Shown: positions 15,868-42,794 of the stretch, one piece after another
How positions within the stretch are numbered: position 1 is the stretch's first letter
Layout of the letters: each line of letters starts with the position of its first letter
The notes under the pieces: generated by a model
Database searches by the model: none
The model's input: the letters and a program-made list of their open reading frames with translations, nothing else
What the model was told of the DNA's origin: nothing
Assembly (NCBI GenBank): GCA_016871575.1
Contig: VHCW01000005.1
Location: 32,193 to 96,192, forward strand
Reading direction: 5' to 3'
DNA: 64,000 nt
From: Verrucomicrobiota bacterium
GTDB taxonomy: Bacteria; Verrucomicrobiota; Verrucomicrobiia; Palsa-1439
Made by a program: the position numbers and the translations under genes

Positions 15868-15880
15868 CGACGAATGTCAT

Positions 15881-15955
15881 TCCGAACGCAGCGAGGAATC
15901 TCTGGAATCCCTCCGGAGAAAAGTTTGAGATTCCTCGCAAGCTCGGGGTGACAAC
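15881..15955. repeat. TCATTCCGA...GAGGAATCT inverted repeat, diverged copy
   Basis: gtcattccgaacgcagcgaggaatctctggaatccctccggagaaaagtttgagattcctcgcaagctcggggtgaca; related to 26419-26496. Confidence 0.75.
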
Positions 15956-23908: not shown

Positions 23909-26215
23909 ATGCGATTCTGCGATCAACTGACCGAGCCAGACGTACGGCTGGTCAAGACGCGCTTGGACGACTTCGTGCCGCGCGAGGTTTTCGACGCTCA
24001 CGTTCACATCTTTCACAGCCGTCATTTCGCCGAGGGCAAACGCCCTGAGTTCATTCCAGCCGACACCGCGTTCGGTTTGCGTCAATTCAACGAAGCGATG
24101 TCCCGCTGGTTGCCGGGTCGTGTCGTCCGCGGACTGGTCTTCGGTTATCCCAGCCCCGGCAACGACCGCGCCGGCGAGAACGCTTTCGTGGCCGGCGAGG
24201 TGGCCGGCAGCGGGAGCCGCGCGCTCGCGTTGCTGGCGCCGGAAGACGACCCGTCGCGGGCGCGTCAACTCATCGCCCAACACCGGTTCGTCGGCATCAA
24301 ACCGTACCGGCTCTACGCGCCCGTGGCCGACTCGGCGCAGGCGACGATCGAGGAGTTCGCGCCGGAATGGATGTGGGAAACCTGCAACGAGATGGATGGT
24401 GTGCTCATGTTGCACATCGTCCGCAGTCTCAGCATTGCCGACGAGAACAACCTCAACAGCCTGCGTCGGCTCTGCCGGAAATATCCGCGTTGCCGCGTCG
24501 TGCTCGCCCACGTCGCGCGCTCGTTCAACTACCGCAATGCGCTCGCGGGCCTCGCCAGCCTCGCTGACCTCGACAACGTCGTCGTGGACACCGCCGGTGT
24601 GACCGAGACGGAAGCGATGCGTGCCGCGCTGGAGATTCTCGGCCCGCGCCGCGTGCTCTACGGCTCCGATTATCCGATCAGCAATCTGCGCGGCAAATGT
24701 TTCACGATGGGCGACGGGTTCACGTGGGTTTATGCCGACGATCTGCCGGCGAAAGCAGTCACGCCGTTCGAGAATTTCACGCTTGTCGGCATCGAGTCGC
24801 TGCTCTGCCTGCGCGAAGCGTGTGAGAACGCCGGCGCAAACGACGGCGATCTGCGCGATATTTTCCGCGACAACGCGCTGCGCCTGCTTTCCCCGCACCT
24901 GGAGACGAAAGATGTTCCGCCCGCGCCGACAGGGCCGGAGTTGTGGGCGCGCGCGCAACAGCGCATCGCATGCGGCACGGGACTGCTCTCGAAGCGCGCC
25001 GTGAGTTTCGACCCCGCAACGTGGCCGCAATATTACTCGCGTTGCGAAGGCGCCTACATTTGGGACACGAACAACCGTCGCTATCTTGATTTCACCGGCG
25101 GCGTCGGCGCAATCCTGCTCGGTTATTCCGATCCCGACGTAAACGCGGCGGTCAAGCGCCGTGTCAACCTCGGCAGCTATTGCACCCTCGTGTCGCCGGA
25201 CGAAGTGGAGTTGGCGGAACTGTTGCTCGGTCTTCATCCGTGGGCGCAACGCCTCCGCTATGCGCGTGGCGGCGGCGAGGCGCTCGCGCAGGCCGTGCGC
25301 ATCGCGCGCGCGGCGACCGGGCGCAGCGGCATCGCGTTTTGCGGGTATCATGGCTGGAGCGATTGGTATCTCGCCGCCAACCTCGGCGAGACCAACGCGC
25401 TCGACGGTCATTTGTTGCCGGGACTTCAACCACTCGGCGTGCCCCGCGAGTTAGCCGGCACCGCGATACCGTTTCGTTACAACGACTATGCGTCGTTCGA
25501 GGCTGCCTTGAAAAACAAACCTGCCGCCGTCCTCATGGAACCGATGCGCGCCGAGTTGCCACGCGACGGCTTCCTCGACAAAGTCGCCGCCGCGTGCCGC
25601 GCAGCGGGCGCTGTGTTCATGGTGGACGAAGTCACCAGCGGCTGGCGGTTCGGTTTTCCCGGCGCGTGCGCGCGGTTCGGCGTTCAGCCCGATGTTGTCG
25701 TCTATGCGAAGGCCATCAGCAACGGTTTCCCCTGCGCCGCCATCGTCGGTCGCGCCGAAGTCATGGATGCCGCCAACGCCAGTTTCATTTCCAGCAGTTA
25801 CTGGACGGACGGCGTCGGCCCGGCTGCGGCGCTCGCGTGCGTTCGCAAGATGCAGCGCGTGTCCGCGCAACAACACGTATGGACGCTCGGCGAGAAACTC
25901 CAGTCCGGTTTGCGGCAGATCGCCGCAGAACATCCGTCGTTGCGCATGAAGATCGGCGGGATGCCGGCCGCGCCATCGCTCGCGTTCGAGCTTGGCGCCG
26001 CCAAGACACTCTACATCCGGAAAATGGTGCAGCGCGGCATCCTGGCGTCGGGCCAGTATTACGTGATGTGGCCGCACTCAACGGAAATGGTGGACACGTT
26101 GCTTGCCGCGCTCAGCGAAGTCTGTGGTGAACTCACGGCCTTGCACGACGCCGGACGTTTGCAGGCCGAAGCTGGCAGCGCGACAGGACAGTCCGGGTTT
26201 GCCCGATTGGCATGA
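23909..26215 (+). CDS. Fused amidohydrolase (amidohydrolase_2-type) - class III aminotransferase (GSA-aminomutase-like)
   Basis: N-half: FDAHVHIFHS...GIKPYRLYA...LHIVRS...VLAHVARSF...VLYGSDYPISN. C-half: PEYY-type N-term, GGGEALAQAVRIARAATGRSGIAFCGYHGWSDWY, FMVDEVTSGWRFG, VVVYAKAISNGFPCAAIVG (PLP Lys). Confidence 0.85.
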   Translation: MRFCDQLTEPDVRLVKTRLDDFVPREVFDAHVHIFHSRHFAEGKRPEFIPADTAFGLRQFNEAMSRWLPGRVVRGLVFGYPSPGNDRAGENAFVAGEVAGSGSRALALLAPEDDPSRARQLIAQHRFVGIKPYRLYAPVADSAQATIEEFAPEWMWETCNEMDGVLMLHIVRSLSIADENNLNSLRRLCRKYPRCRVVLAHVARSFNYRNALAGLASLADLDNVVVDTAGVTETEAMRAALEILGPRRVLYGSDYPISNLRGKCFTMGDGFTWVYADDLPAKAVTPFENFTLVGIESLLCLREACENAGANDGDLRDIFRDNALRLLSPHLETKDVPPAPTGPELWARAQQRIACGTGLLSKRAVSFDPATWPQYYSRCEGAYIWDTNNRRYLDFTGGVGAILLGYSDPDVNAAVKRRVNLGSYCTLVSPDEVELAELLLGLHPWAQRLRYARGGGEALAQAVRIARAATGRSGIAFCGYHGWSDWYLAANLGETNALDGHLLPGLQPLGVPRELAGTAIPFRYNDYASFEAALKNKPAAVLMEPMRAELPRDGFLDKVAAACRAAGAVFMVDEVTSGWRFGFPGACARFGVQPDVVVYAKAISNGFPCAAIVGRAEVMDAANASFISSSYWTDGVGPAAALACVRKMQRVSAQQHVWTLGEKLQSGLRQIAAEHPSLRMKIGGMPAAPSLAFELGAAKTLYIRKMVQRGILASGQYYVMWPHSTEMVDTLLAALSEVCGELTALHDAGRLQAEAGSATGQSGFARLA

Positions 26216-26283
26216 ACAAAGCACTTGCCCGGCAACGGCCGCTGCCTACGATGTCGCGCAAGTCATCCACGGCGACGCATGTG

Positions 26284-26544
26284 CACCTCCGGTAACTGCT
26301 TTTCTGGTGTAGGCCGCTTCTGCGAAGCGGCGCAATCCTTCGTGAAATCGCCGACTCGCAGAGTCGGCCTACAACGATTTGAGAGTTACCGGACAGGACT
26401 TACGCATCAAGAAAATGCTGTCATTCCGAGCTTGCGAGGAATCTCTAACTTCTTTCCGGAGGGATTCCAGAGATTCCTCGCAAGCTCGGAATGACAGGAA
26501 TTGTTACGGATTGTTGATGCGTAAGCCCTGAGTTACCGGAGGTG
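26284..26544. mobile_element. Composite repeat: REPIN with 14-bp terminal inverted repeats, interrupted by a MITE-like element
   Basis: CACCTCCGGTAACT (26284-26297) and AGTTACCGGAGGTG (26531-26544); inner REPs 26309-26372. Confidence 0.75.
26394..26530. mobile_element. 137-bp MITE-like element, TIR 16/17, 10-bp TSD
   Basis: CAGGACTTACGCATCAA ... TTGATGCGTAAGCCCTG; AGTTACCGGA duplicated at 26384-26393 and 26531-26540; contains perfect 28-bp-arm palindrome 26419-26496. Confidence 0.82.
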
Positions 26545-26585
26545 CCCTATTGTATTCTGGCCGCGGTTCAGCGTAAACTGCCGCC

Positions 26586-27761
26586 ATGACTCTCCTTCAA
26601 TGGTTCATGCTTCTCAGCCTGCCGGTCACAGGCATGGGTTACGCCGCGCTTGGTGCGTTGAAGTTGCCGCTCTGCGAACGCCTGAAACTCGATGAAGCAA
26701 AAGCGGGCGGACTCGTTTCCTCGTTTGGCTTGATGGTCGGGCCGATCATCCTGTTGTGCGGCTTTGTCGCCGATGCGTGGGGCCGCAAGGGAGTTTGCGT
26801 TGCGGGCGCGGTGCTCGTCGCCGCGTCGTTCATCCTGCTCAGCAGCGGACGCAAATACTCGACCGCGGTCGTCGCAGTGCTCATGCTGTCGGCAGGTTGG
26901 GCGGCATTGATCAACGTCGTCAACGCGCTCATGTATCAGGCCTACGCGAACGTGTTCATGGCCAGCAATCTTCTGAACTTCTTCTTCGGCCTCGGCGCGT
27001 TCCTCACGCCGCCGGCGCTGGTGTTGCTCATCCGGAAAATCGGGTTTCCCCGCGCAGTAACGGCGCTCGGTGCGGTGGCGGGCATGACTGCGGCTTTCGC
27101 GCTGGTTGTGAACATGGAGGCCGCAACGGTGGCTGCTCCCGCCGGCTTCGGTGCGCTGGTCGGCGACCCGGTGATGTGGCTCTGCGCAGTGACGTTGATG
27201 TTCTGGGTGCCGGTGGAATCCTCGACCGCGGCGTGGACCACGAGCTTCGTAAACTCGCACGCGCCGGCGAATGAAACGACGGAGAGAACAAATCGCATCG
27301 CAGGCTGGGCGCTGTCAGGGTTTTGGCTGTGCTTCATGGGATCGCGGCTGGTTGCGGCTCTGGTGGTTGGCGCGGCGGGATTGAACGTCGCCCAATCCGT
27401 TCACCTCGCCCACCTCACGTTGATCGTGCTGGCCGTGCTGTGCGTCGCAACGCTGATCGGACTGGTCGTGTCACGGCAACGCGCGCTGACGCTCGGACTG
27501 ATTCTGTTTGCGGGTCTCATCTACGGGCCGTTCTTCCCGAACCTGATGGCGCTGCTGCTCAGTCATTTCCCCCCGGAGTTGCACGGTCGCGCCGTGGGCA
27601 TCCTGTTTGGTTGTGCGTCCGTCGGCTGGACGATCATCCCCGCCTTCATCGGCAAGGTGGCCGCGCGCAGCACGCTGCAACGCGGTTTCCTCGTGGCGGT
27701 CGGCGACGCTGTCGTGCTGCTGGCCGTTGTCGTGGCTCACTTCATTTACGCCGGCCACTGA
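26586..27761 (+). CDS. MFS transporter
   Basis: ~12 hydrophobic helices; MTLLQWFMLLSLPVTGMGYAALGALKLPL...GLMVGPIILLCGFVADAWGRKGV. Confidence 0.85.
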   Translation: MTLLQWFMLLSLPVTGMGYAALGALKLPLCERLKLDEAKAGGLVSSFGLMVGPIILLCGFVADAWGRKGVCVAGAVLVAASFILLSSGRKYSTAVVAVLMLSAGWAALINVVNALMYQAYANVFMASNLLNFFFGLGAFLTPPALVLLIRKIGFPRAVTALGAVAGMTAAFALVVNMEAATVAAPAGFGALVGDPVMWLCAVTLMFWVPVESSTAAWTTSFVNSHAPANETTERTNRIAGWALSGFWLCFMGSRLVAALVVGAAGLNVAQSVHLAHLTLIVLAVLCVATLIGLVVSRQRALTLGLILFAGLIYGPFFPNLMALLLSHFPPELHGRAVGILFGCASVGWTIIPAFIGKVAARSTLQRGFLVAVGDAVVLLAVVVAHFIYAGH

Positions 27762-38163: not shown

Positions 38164-38832
38164 TTTGTTCCCTTCTTGAATGTGGGAGGGGCCTTGGCGC
38201 CCCGACCGCCCAAACCCGTCGCCGCACTGAGGCGGCTCCCACGTTGGATCTCACGTTCGCGCCGGTGACGCGGACGAGCCGGCGGCTCGTCCCTAGTGTG
38301 CTCGGCAGGTGCTGGGTCTTGCGGGCTGGAAGGTGCCCGTCGGAGGAGATGAGACCAACCGTAGTCGAACTGTCAGGCCGAGGCCGCAAGGCGCAGGCTG
38401 AAAGGACGGAAGACAAAGGCGCGGGCGTAGGAACACGAACAGGCAGCGAGGCTCAATGTCGCGGGCGAGCAGGCTAGGACGCGCGAAGCCCAACCTTCAT
38501 CGAACGACATGGAGTAGAGCCTGACGCCGTGCGCCGACAGAACCAGCACTGACCCGAGGAGACCCGACAGCCGAGAGGTCGTCGGGAGTCAGCAGAGGCC
38601 ATAGTAGCGAGGACGCTCCGCGAAAGCGGGGAACAGCGAAGGGCCGAAGAACAACCAACAAAGCTACGAAGGAAGCGTCAGCGACGGACACAGAGTCGTC
38701 GGAAACGGACGGGCGCGACAACTGCGGTCAGGTCCCGCACCGGCAGAACCTGCGACGAGGCGATGGAGTCGCCGCAGTCGCGGAGAGCGCGACGGCCAGT
38801 CTGGCGATGACCGCGACCTTGGAGAGAAAGCA

Positions 38833-40080
38833 ATGTACGAGAACCTGATGGAACAGGCCGTGAGCCGTGAGAATGCGCGGAGCGCCTTGCGTGCGGTACA
38901 ACGCAATCAAGGCGCCGCCGGCATTGACGGCATGACGGTCAAGCAGTTGGAGTCCCACCTGCGGCAACACGGGGAACGGGTGTGCGCGAAGTTGTTGGCG
39001 GGCACCTATACGCCCAGTCCGGTGCGGCGGGTGGAGATTCCGAAGCCGAACGGTGGAACGCGGAGGCTGGGCATCCCGACGGTGATGGATCGGTTTGTGC
39101 AACAGGTGCTGTTGCAAGTGTTGCAACCGATCTGGGAACCGTTGTTCAGCGAGCACCGCTACGGGTTCCGACCGGGACGCAGCGCGCACGATGCCGTGCG
39201 CGTGGCACGCGAGCATGTGCGCCAAGGGAAAAGCTGGGTGGTGGACATGGACATCACGAGCTTCTTCGACCGCGTGCATCACGACATCCTGATGACCCGC
39301 ATCGGGCGCGTGGTGCGCGACAAGCGAGTGCTGCGCCTGATCGGGAAGTATCTGCGCAGCGGCGCGCTGGTGGAAGGGGTGGTGGTGGCGAGCGAGGAAG
39401 GCACGCCGCAAGGCGGACCGCTCTCGCCCCTGTTGGCCAACATCTATCTGGACGCCTTGGACAAAGAACTGGAGCGACGCGGACTGGCATTTGTGCGGTA
39501 CGCGGACGACTGCAACATGTACGTGAGCAGTCCCCGCGCGGCGGAGCGAGTGTTGGCGAGCGTGAGCCAGTGGCTGGCGTGCGAACTGCGACTGGAAGTC
39601 AACGCGACCAAAAGCGGAGTGGGCCGGCCTTGGGAACGGAAGTTTCTGGGGTTTCGGATTCGGACTGACCTGAAGATTGAAGTGGCGCCGCCGAGCGTGG
39701 CACGCTTCAAGACGAAAGTGCGGGAGCTGTGGCGAAGCTGCCAGAGTCTGAGCAGCGAACGGCTGCGGGAGAACTGGCGCGCCTTCGTGCGAGGCTGGTG
39801 GGGCTACTACCGGCTGACCGAAGACCGCCGCAACGTGACGCGCTGGGAAGGCTGGATTCGACGGCACATTCGGAAATGCTTCTGGTTGCGGTGGCACGAC
39901 TGGCGGGGAAGGCAGCGCAAGCTGCGACTGCTGGGCGTGCGGGGTCATGGGCTGCGCGTGGCATCGAGCAGCAAAGGCGCGTGGCGGATTGCGGCCAGTC
40001 CCGTGATGCAACAAGCGTTACGCAACGCGATACTGCGGCGGCATGGCTTCTGGGTTCCGACGGACTTGGCTCTGACGTGA
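38833..40080 (+). CDS. ltrA: Group II intron reverse transcriptase/maturase
   Basis: GIDGMTVKQLESHL, RPLGIP-type motif RRLGIPTVMDRFVQQ, YGFRPGRSAHDA, VVDMDITSFFDRV, GTPQGGPLSPLLANIYLD, FVRYADDCNMYV; C-terminal maturase (X) domain, no obvious endonuclease domain. Confidence 0.95.
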   Translation: MYENLMEQAVSRENARSALRAVQRNQGAAGIDGMTVKQLESHLRQHGERVCAKLLAGTYTPSPVRRVEIPKPNGGTRRLGIPTVMDRFVQQVLLQVLQPIWEPLFSEHRYGFRPGRSAHDAVRVAREHVRQGKSWVVDMDITSFFDRVHHDILMTRIGRVVRDKRVLRLIGKYLRSGALVEGVVVASEEGTPQGGPLSPLLANIYLDALDKELERRGLAFVRYADDCNMYVSSPRAAERVLASVSQWLACELRLEVNATKSGVGRPWERKFLGFRIRTDLKIEVAPPSVARFKTKVRELWRSCQSLSSERLRENWRAFVRGWWGYYRLTEDRRNVTRWEGWIRRHIRKCFWLRWHDWRGRQRKLRLLGVRGHGLRVASSSKGAWRIAASPVMQQALRNAILRRHGFWVPTDLALT

Positions 40081-40096
40081 TGTGGGGCAATGTTCA

Positions 40097-40130
40097 ACCG
40101 CCGGATGCGGAAGACCGCACGTCCGGTGGT
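40097..40130 (+). ncRNA. Group II intron domain V
   Basis: ACCGCCGGATGCGGAAGACCGCACGTCCGGTGGT folds as the 34-nt two-stem DV with tetraloop and 2-nt bulge (CG). Confidence 0.85.
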
Positions 40131-40169
40131 GTGGGAGGGTCACGGGGCGCAATCCCCGTGACCCGACCC

Positions 40170-40405
40170 GATCTCTTGACAACATTTCGGCGTGGGCATT
40201 TACTCGCCGGGGTCGCACCTTCACCATTCACGAAAAGATTGAATCCTGCCCCGATTCAACTACACGCTCGACTCCGTGGGCAACCACACAAACAAAACCC
40301 AAACGACGCCCAAACCAACCAGCGGCAACTGCGTGCGCAAGGAACCTTACGGCTACGATACGGCCGGGAACAGCGTTGACAGGCCGGGCGTTCGTTGCTA
40401 ACGGA
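40170..40405 (+). pseudogene. Possible RHS/YD-repeat gene remnant
   Basis: One frame reads FNYTLDSVGNHTNKTQTTPKPTSGNCVRKEPYGYDTAGNSVDRPG..., resembling Y-x-D-x-x-G-N-x repeats; no complete ORF. Confidence 0.4.
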
Positions 40406-42515: not shown

Positions 42516-42638
42516 TTAGGTGCTCTCCTTGCAGGAGATATTACGCCTTTCACCAACCGTCAACCATCAAACTTTCGCTGATTTCGTTGTAAGGGTTTTC
42601 CCTAGCCGCCGTGGCTGCGGCAGCTTTTGTCATATGGG

Positions 42639-42772
42639 TGCCTCCGGTAACTCCCCTGTGGCGACAATTGGTTGTAGGCCGACTCTGCGAGTCGGCGAAA
42701 TGCCTGGCAAAAACGCCGCTTCGCAGAAGCGGCCTACAACAGCCATCTCATCAAACCGAGTTACCGGAGGTG
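42639..42772. mobile_element. Second copy of the terminal-inverted-repeat REPIN, core inverted
   Basis: CCTCCGGTAACT (42641-42652) ... AGTTACCGGAGGTG (42759-42772); inner REPs 42674-42737 are the reverse complement arrangement of 26309-26372. Confidence 0.75.
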
Positions 42773-42794
42773 TCCATGTTCTGTTTCTCCTGTC

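Follow-up and report, generated by a model that had tools for sequence, protein, structure and literature searches.

The question that this locus raises is what kind of element was inserted into what, and which transposase moved it. The window, a stretch of 64,000 nucleotides from a Verrucomicrobiota bacterium (host genome G000), holds the locus between a + strand gene that ends at 26215, with amidohydrolase and class-III aminotransferase domain matches in its product, and a + strand MFS transporter gene with its start at 26586. The inner element (26394..26530, no strand assigned) begins with a left terminal inverted repeat, CAGGACTTACGCATCAA (26394..26410, + strand), that is complementary at 16 of 17 positions to the right end, TTGATGCGTAAGCCCTG (26514..26530, reading CAGGGCTTACGCATCAA on the − strand). 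Directly outside these ends lie the two + strand copies of a target-site duplication, AGTTACCGGA (left 26384..26393, right 26531..26540), which match at 10 of 10 positions; the chance of an exact 10-bp repeat at a position set by the inverted ends is about 4^-10. With its length of 137 bp, within the 50–500 bp range of MITEs, the element has the make-up of a MITE, and it contains no transposase gene, the only open frame that overlaps it being a chance frame of 89 aa. As single-stranded DNA it is predicted to fold at −52 kcal/mol (z = −13.3 against shuffles).

The inner element interrupts a parent element (26281..26547, no strand assigned) that measures 120 bp without the insert and one duplicate. 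The full ends of the parent type are 17 bp long (GGGCACCTCCGGTAACT...AGTTACCGGAGGTGCCC), and in the window the left end carries one change, GTGCACC, so that the pair reads GTGCACCTCCGGTAACT / AGTTACCGGAGGTGCCC. The left copy of AGTTACCGGA was originally within the right terminal repeat. When the flanks were rejoined with one duplicate, the product agreed at 118 of 120 positions with a copy on host contig C37 that has no insert and is bounded by a 4-bp duplication, ATTA. The inner element is therefore the later insertion, and it went into the right terminal repeat of the parent. Around the window's own parent copy we found no 4-bp duplication. DNA-level alignment of the family genomes across the locus revealed no orthologous empty site, because these genomes align only in repeats and in one weak (65%) match to a neighbouring gene. 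The initial annotation had described a 137-bp MITE-like insertion with a 10-bp target-site duplication, 16/17 complementary ends and no transposase inside, all of which agrees with these data, and the insertion order and intact empty site that it predicted are found in a paralogue, not in an orthologue. Its proposal that excision restores a 114-bp parent was right about the restoration but not about the size and ends, which are longer than it stated. The description of the insertion as nested in a REPIN is correct for the core of the parent, but not if a bare REPIN is meant, since IS5-type ends surround that core.

The IS5 assignment comes from other copies of the parent ends. Several genomes of the class contain paired parent-type ends, most often separated by 140 bp, and one of these genomes (G036) gives dozens of matches. 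Of the 26 pairs that were scored, 12 have an exact 4-bp duplication. In G036 the same ends bound elements with a frame that starts as an IS5-like transposase (NF033581, E = 5e-18; PF05598, E = 5e-15). All of these elements are incomplete, either because a contig ends within them or through internal deletion, and the matches fall under the curated cut-off because the frames are truncated. No IS5-like transposase was detected in the host by a protein search with the 118-aa fragment; contigs C13 and C170 each keep a remnant of the right end. Ends in common with the IS5-like elements of G036 and a short target duplication are what define an IS5-type MITE here, and on this evidence the parent, whose interior is a GTAG-type REPIN, is as a whole a MITE of an IS5-like insertion sequence. 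A second parent-type MITE in the window (42636..42775, no strand assigned) is 140 bp long and uninterrupted and has a REPIN core. On contig C14 a copy matches it at all 140 bp and is flanked by a TAAA duplication, which indicates that this MITE family has moved recently in the host. Elsewhere in the window, group II intron matches (Rfam RF02001, RF01998 and RF00029) cover 38380-40172, with a 415-aa reverse-transcriptase-like frame at 38833-40080 amid them.

The ends of the inner element belong to another family. Across the genome collection their pattern, CAGGRCTTACGCATCAA, was recorded in at least 118 stretches, and complete elements with both exact ends are 1233–1243 bp long and encode ISAs1-family transposases (NF033564, E from 8e-101 to 2e-113; PF13808 and PF01609). 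Exact ends bound ISAs1 elements at L143, L063, L122 and L129, and an ISAs1 transposase match lies beside exact ends at 17 loci. A perfect 10-bp duplication, CCAAAATACA, flanks the chromosomal copy of Candidatus Fukatsuia symbiotica (L143:5661-6903), which shares the 17-bp ends. The value of 10 bp for exact-ended autonomous elements comes from L143, since the complete Hymenobacter copies (L122, L129) and the one carried by the Fukatsuia plasmid (L063) have no duplication. The host itself contains an intact ISAs1 element on contig C17 (51501-52797, 1297 bp) with an uninterrupted 389-aa frame (404 bits), variant ends (CAGGGCAGACGCATCTA) that match the MITE ends at 13–14 of 17 positions, and a 10-bp duplication, GCCGGCCGGC; the duplication length is thus common to the inner MITE, L143 and the C17 element. 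An exact-ended autonomous ISAs1 was not found at up to 2 mismatches in the host assembly, a draft in 257 contigs that is 95% complete. The initial annotation had supposed a DDE-type mover and had asked for transposase frames between these ends and for an insertion sequence that carries them in the genome. Such frames are present in other bacteria and are of the ISAs1 family; in the host the C17 element provides related ends, but exact ones were not found. These protein matches support naming the putative mover as an ISAs1-family transposase.

Further ISAs1 material is scattered in the host. A 300-bp derivative of the C17 element, internally deleted and without a matching target duplication, lies on contig C14 (G000:C14:60593-60892, L228), so derivatives that lack an intact gene exist in this genome, and contig C8 has a degenerate relative. 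Five pieces of another ISAs1 type, with the end CACGGTGAACGCATTTAG, were seen at the ends of contigs C3, C31, C59, C92 and C198; its position at several contig ends makes it likely that this type is multi-copy and was active recently. Loci in cyanobacteria that carry the 17-bp end of the inner MITE were considered as ISAs1 relatives and rejected, since the duplications visible there are mostly 5 bp long; these loci probably belong to a separate family whose short end is similar. Seven cyanobacterial loci (L051, L067, L073, L078, L088, L139 and L163) hold short elements with the ends [CT]AGGACTTACGCA and 5-bp duplications, and some of these short elements start with GTCATTGC palindromes.

Both MITEs are built around dimers of REP-like hairpins. 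The core of the parent, GTAGGCCGCTTCTGCGAAGCGGC ... GCCGACTCGCAGAGTCGGCCTAC (26308..26373, no strand assigned), is a head-to-head GTAG-type REP dimer, and it qualifies as a REPIN by its inverted GTAG-tagged GTAGGCCG...CGGC pairs and by the presence of a RAYT-type gene in the genome. Nine Y1-type matches were obtained in the host, one of which (C57:3590-3856) has REP dimers of the same type on both sides. The unit around it (G000:C57:3427-4094, L337) is REPtron-like, with the Y1/RAYT-type gene between head-to-head GTAG REP dimers, and sits between two long genes that resemble glutamate synthase subunits. The core of the inner MITE (26419..26496, 78 bp, no strand assigned) consists of two TGTC-tagged palindromes in inverted orientation, TGTCATTCCGAGCTTGCGAGGAATCTC and its inverse, laid out as TGTC-ATTCC-GAGCTTGCGA-GGAAT-CTC; the stem starts with AT and comprises 5 bp, GA/GA mismatches and 2 bp, the loop has 2–3 nt and the tail is CTC. 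The CGTC super-family of REPs is described with a CGTC or TGTC tag, an AT-first stem of 8–9 bp, a loop of 4–5 nt and a CCA-like tail (PMC3733652), and the inner core appears to resemble it in tag, stem start and dimer form, with an incomplete match in stem, loop and tail. Bare copies of this core, with no ISAs1 ends, are found on contigs C106, C3, C42, C53 and C93 and across the family, and the window contains a bare CGTC-like dimer without terminal repeats that is 76% identical to the inner core (15875..15953, no strand assigned). The C106 copy is 93% identical to the core of the MITE, which suggests that resident REP dimers may have been captured as MITE cores.

The bare dimers also bear on a different order of events, in which the REP dimers are themselves active movers, driven by a RAYT or another factor, that entered ISAs1 and IS5 MITEs secondarily, the transposon ends being older. 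Both kinds of dimer are found bare at scattered places in the genome and the family, and GTAG dimers flank a RAYT-type gene. Moreover, two elements of G050 (on C166 and C244; L305 and L306) have near-identical 17-bp parent-type ends around hairpin pairs unlike those of G000 and G036, which suggests that cores may have been exchanged under one kind of transposon end. Against this stand the host copies that we examined, none of which is an end pair without a hairpin core, and the CGTC-type repeats, with which Di Nocera et al. (2013) associated no transposase, leaving their mover open (PMC3733652). We regard this alternative as somewhat doubtful though worth serious consideration; the entry of the inner element into the parent would be unaffected by it, given the 10-bp duplication at ISAs1 ends. 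Another reading takes the inner element for an ordinary ISAs1 derivative that arose by internal deletion and whose interior is like REP palindromes by mere coincidence. Internal deletion is a common origin of MITEs, and the 300-bp derivative of the C17 element is a case in the host, but the core is a REP-like dimer and not an ISAs1 remnant, and the 93% identical C106 copy and the other bare copies have no ISAs1 ends, so that we consider this reading improbable.

The element has few relatives. Only two copies with inner-MITE ends are present in the host, one of them degenerate, and there is accordingly little sign of recent activity. The second copy (C12:44570-44718, 148 bp), which answers the expectation of the initial annotation that others would exist, has one degenerate end and a duplication that matches at 9 of 10 positions (ATGTCACATG/ATGTCACAGG). 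In another genus of the same family, a 172-bp element (G005:C208) has a core 95% identical to the inner core and a 21-bp arm, CGTAACAATTCCTGTCATTCC, in common with the inner element; its ends, CAGGGCAGAGCATCTAA and CAGGGCAGACGCGTCTAAA, are of the type of the C17 ISAs1, and its 10-bp duplication, CCGCCGTCTG, is perfect. Two more elements come from the Phycisphaerae, one in MAG24 of 183 bp with the ends of the inner element, a perfect 10-bp duplication (TCCCAGCAAT) and the core TGTCATTCCCGCGAAAGCGGGAATCCA, and the other (L145) of 246 bp with a 9/10 duplication and other long palindromes inside. When 384 genomes of the class were searched for CTTACGCAT followed by GTCATTSC, the real arrangement was found in the host only, the other four matches lacking the dimer; the combination with exact ends is therefore rare. 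A distant-mode search of the plasmid collection gave no match. The random-position control for duplications showed an unexplained excess of 12-bp calls and was left out of the evidence. That the direct repeat AGTTACCGGA is instead formed by two ends of adjacent parent-type elements around a hairpin is scarcely credible, for although it is part of the parent's terminal repeat and hence occurs several times in the genome, excision restores the C37 paralogue and the other copies have unrelated 9–10-bp duplications at the same ends.

Taken together, and as far as sequence comparison can tell, these data very probably reflect the insertion, presumably in trans, of a non-autonomous ISAs1-family MITE, the inner element, into an older IS5-type MITE with a REPIN core. 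In the proposed sequence of events, an ISAs1-family DDE transposase would act in trans and bind the approximately 17-bp ends around the REP dimer, and a 10-bp staggered cut in the right terminal repeat of the parent would duplicate AGTTACCGGA. The target was the older IS5-type MITE, with ends GGGCACCTCCGGTAACT, 4-bp duplications and a GTAG-type REPIN in its interior, the REPIN being related to the dimers that flank the RAYT-type gene of the host. The mover would be either the C17 ISAs1 or an exact-ended element that is absent from the assembly, and the REP dimers would be passengers that spread by means of the MITE ends.

What is new here is that a member of one MITE family lies within a member of a second, unrelated one, each with insertion-sequence ends around a REP-type dimer. 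MITEs, REPINs and ISAs1 are already known individually; their combination touches on the question of what moves CGTC REPs, and the nested pair dates two non-autonomous families relative to each other. CGTC-like dimers between ISAs1 ends with 10-bp duplications occur in two genera that belong to a single family, and also in one genome of the Phycisphaerae, which makes that question directly testable for these REPs. The link between CGTC-type dimers and ISAs1 ends is rare, with few cases and, for the exact arrangement, one of the 384 class genomes. We tentatively propose, as a distinct possibility that falls short of a favoured conclusion, that DDE-transposon MITEs, of the ISAs1 type both here and in the Phycisphaerae, have at least partly dispersed the CGTC REP dimers by carrying them as cores, and that dimers of both REP super-families have been recurrently captured in this way. 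If this is true, outer palindromes around REP dimers in other bacteria would be transposon ends. The arrangement suggests that hairpins with no known mover could spread between borrowed insertion-sequence ends.

Compared with known systems, the inner element resembles ISAs1-family insertion sequences (NF033564), whose 17-bp ends are exactly the same at the Fukatsuia, Hymenobacter and Endozoicomonas loci and whose target duplication is also 10 bp, but these are 1.2–1.3 kb long and carry a transposase, whereas the inner element has neither the length nor the gene. Like the bacterial MITEs Nezha, Chunjie, QMITE and MITEAba12 (PMC10969869), it is short, intergenic and gene-less, with two terminal repeats and target duplications. 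It differs from the reviewed MITEs in that its interior is a REP-like dimer and not a decayed transposase, and in that its target is a MITE of another family; ISAs1 is unmentioned in that review. The parent copies share with GTAG REPINs and RAYTs the head-to-head GTAG dimer and a RAYT-type gene flanked by such dimers, but outside the REPIN the parent copies add IS5-type terminal repeats and 4-bp duplications, both of which are absent from bare REPINs. With CGTC-tagged REP dimers (PMC3733652) the inner core shares the TGTC tag, which is a listed variant, the AT-first stem ATTCC...GGAAT and the head-to-head dimer, and the MAG24 core fits the described form more closely, with an 8-bp stem, a 4-nt loop and a CCA tail. 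In contrast to the described repeats, the dimers here stand between DDE-transposon ends with target duplications, and the core in the window has a GA/GA-interrupted stem and a CTC tail. REP dimers within long palindromes are known from A. variabilis and one other species, and these too have the dimer inside an outer inverted repeat; they were described as REPs inserted in palindromes, whereas in the elements reported here the palindromes are transposon ends with duplications.
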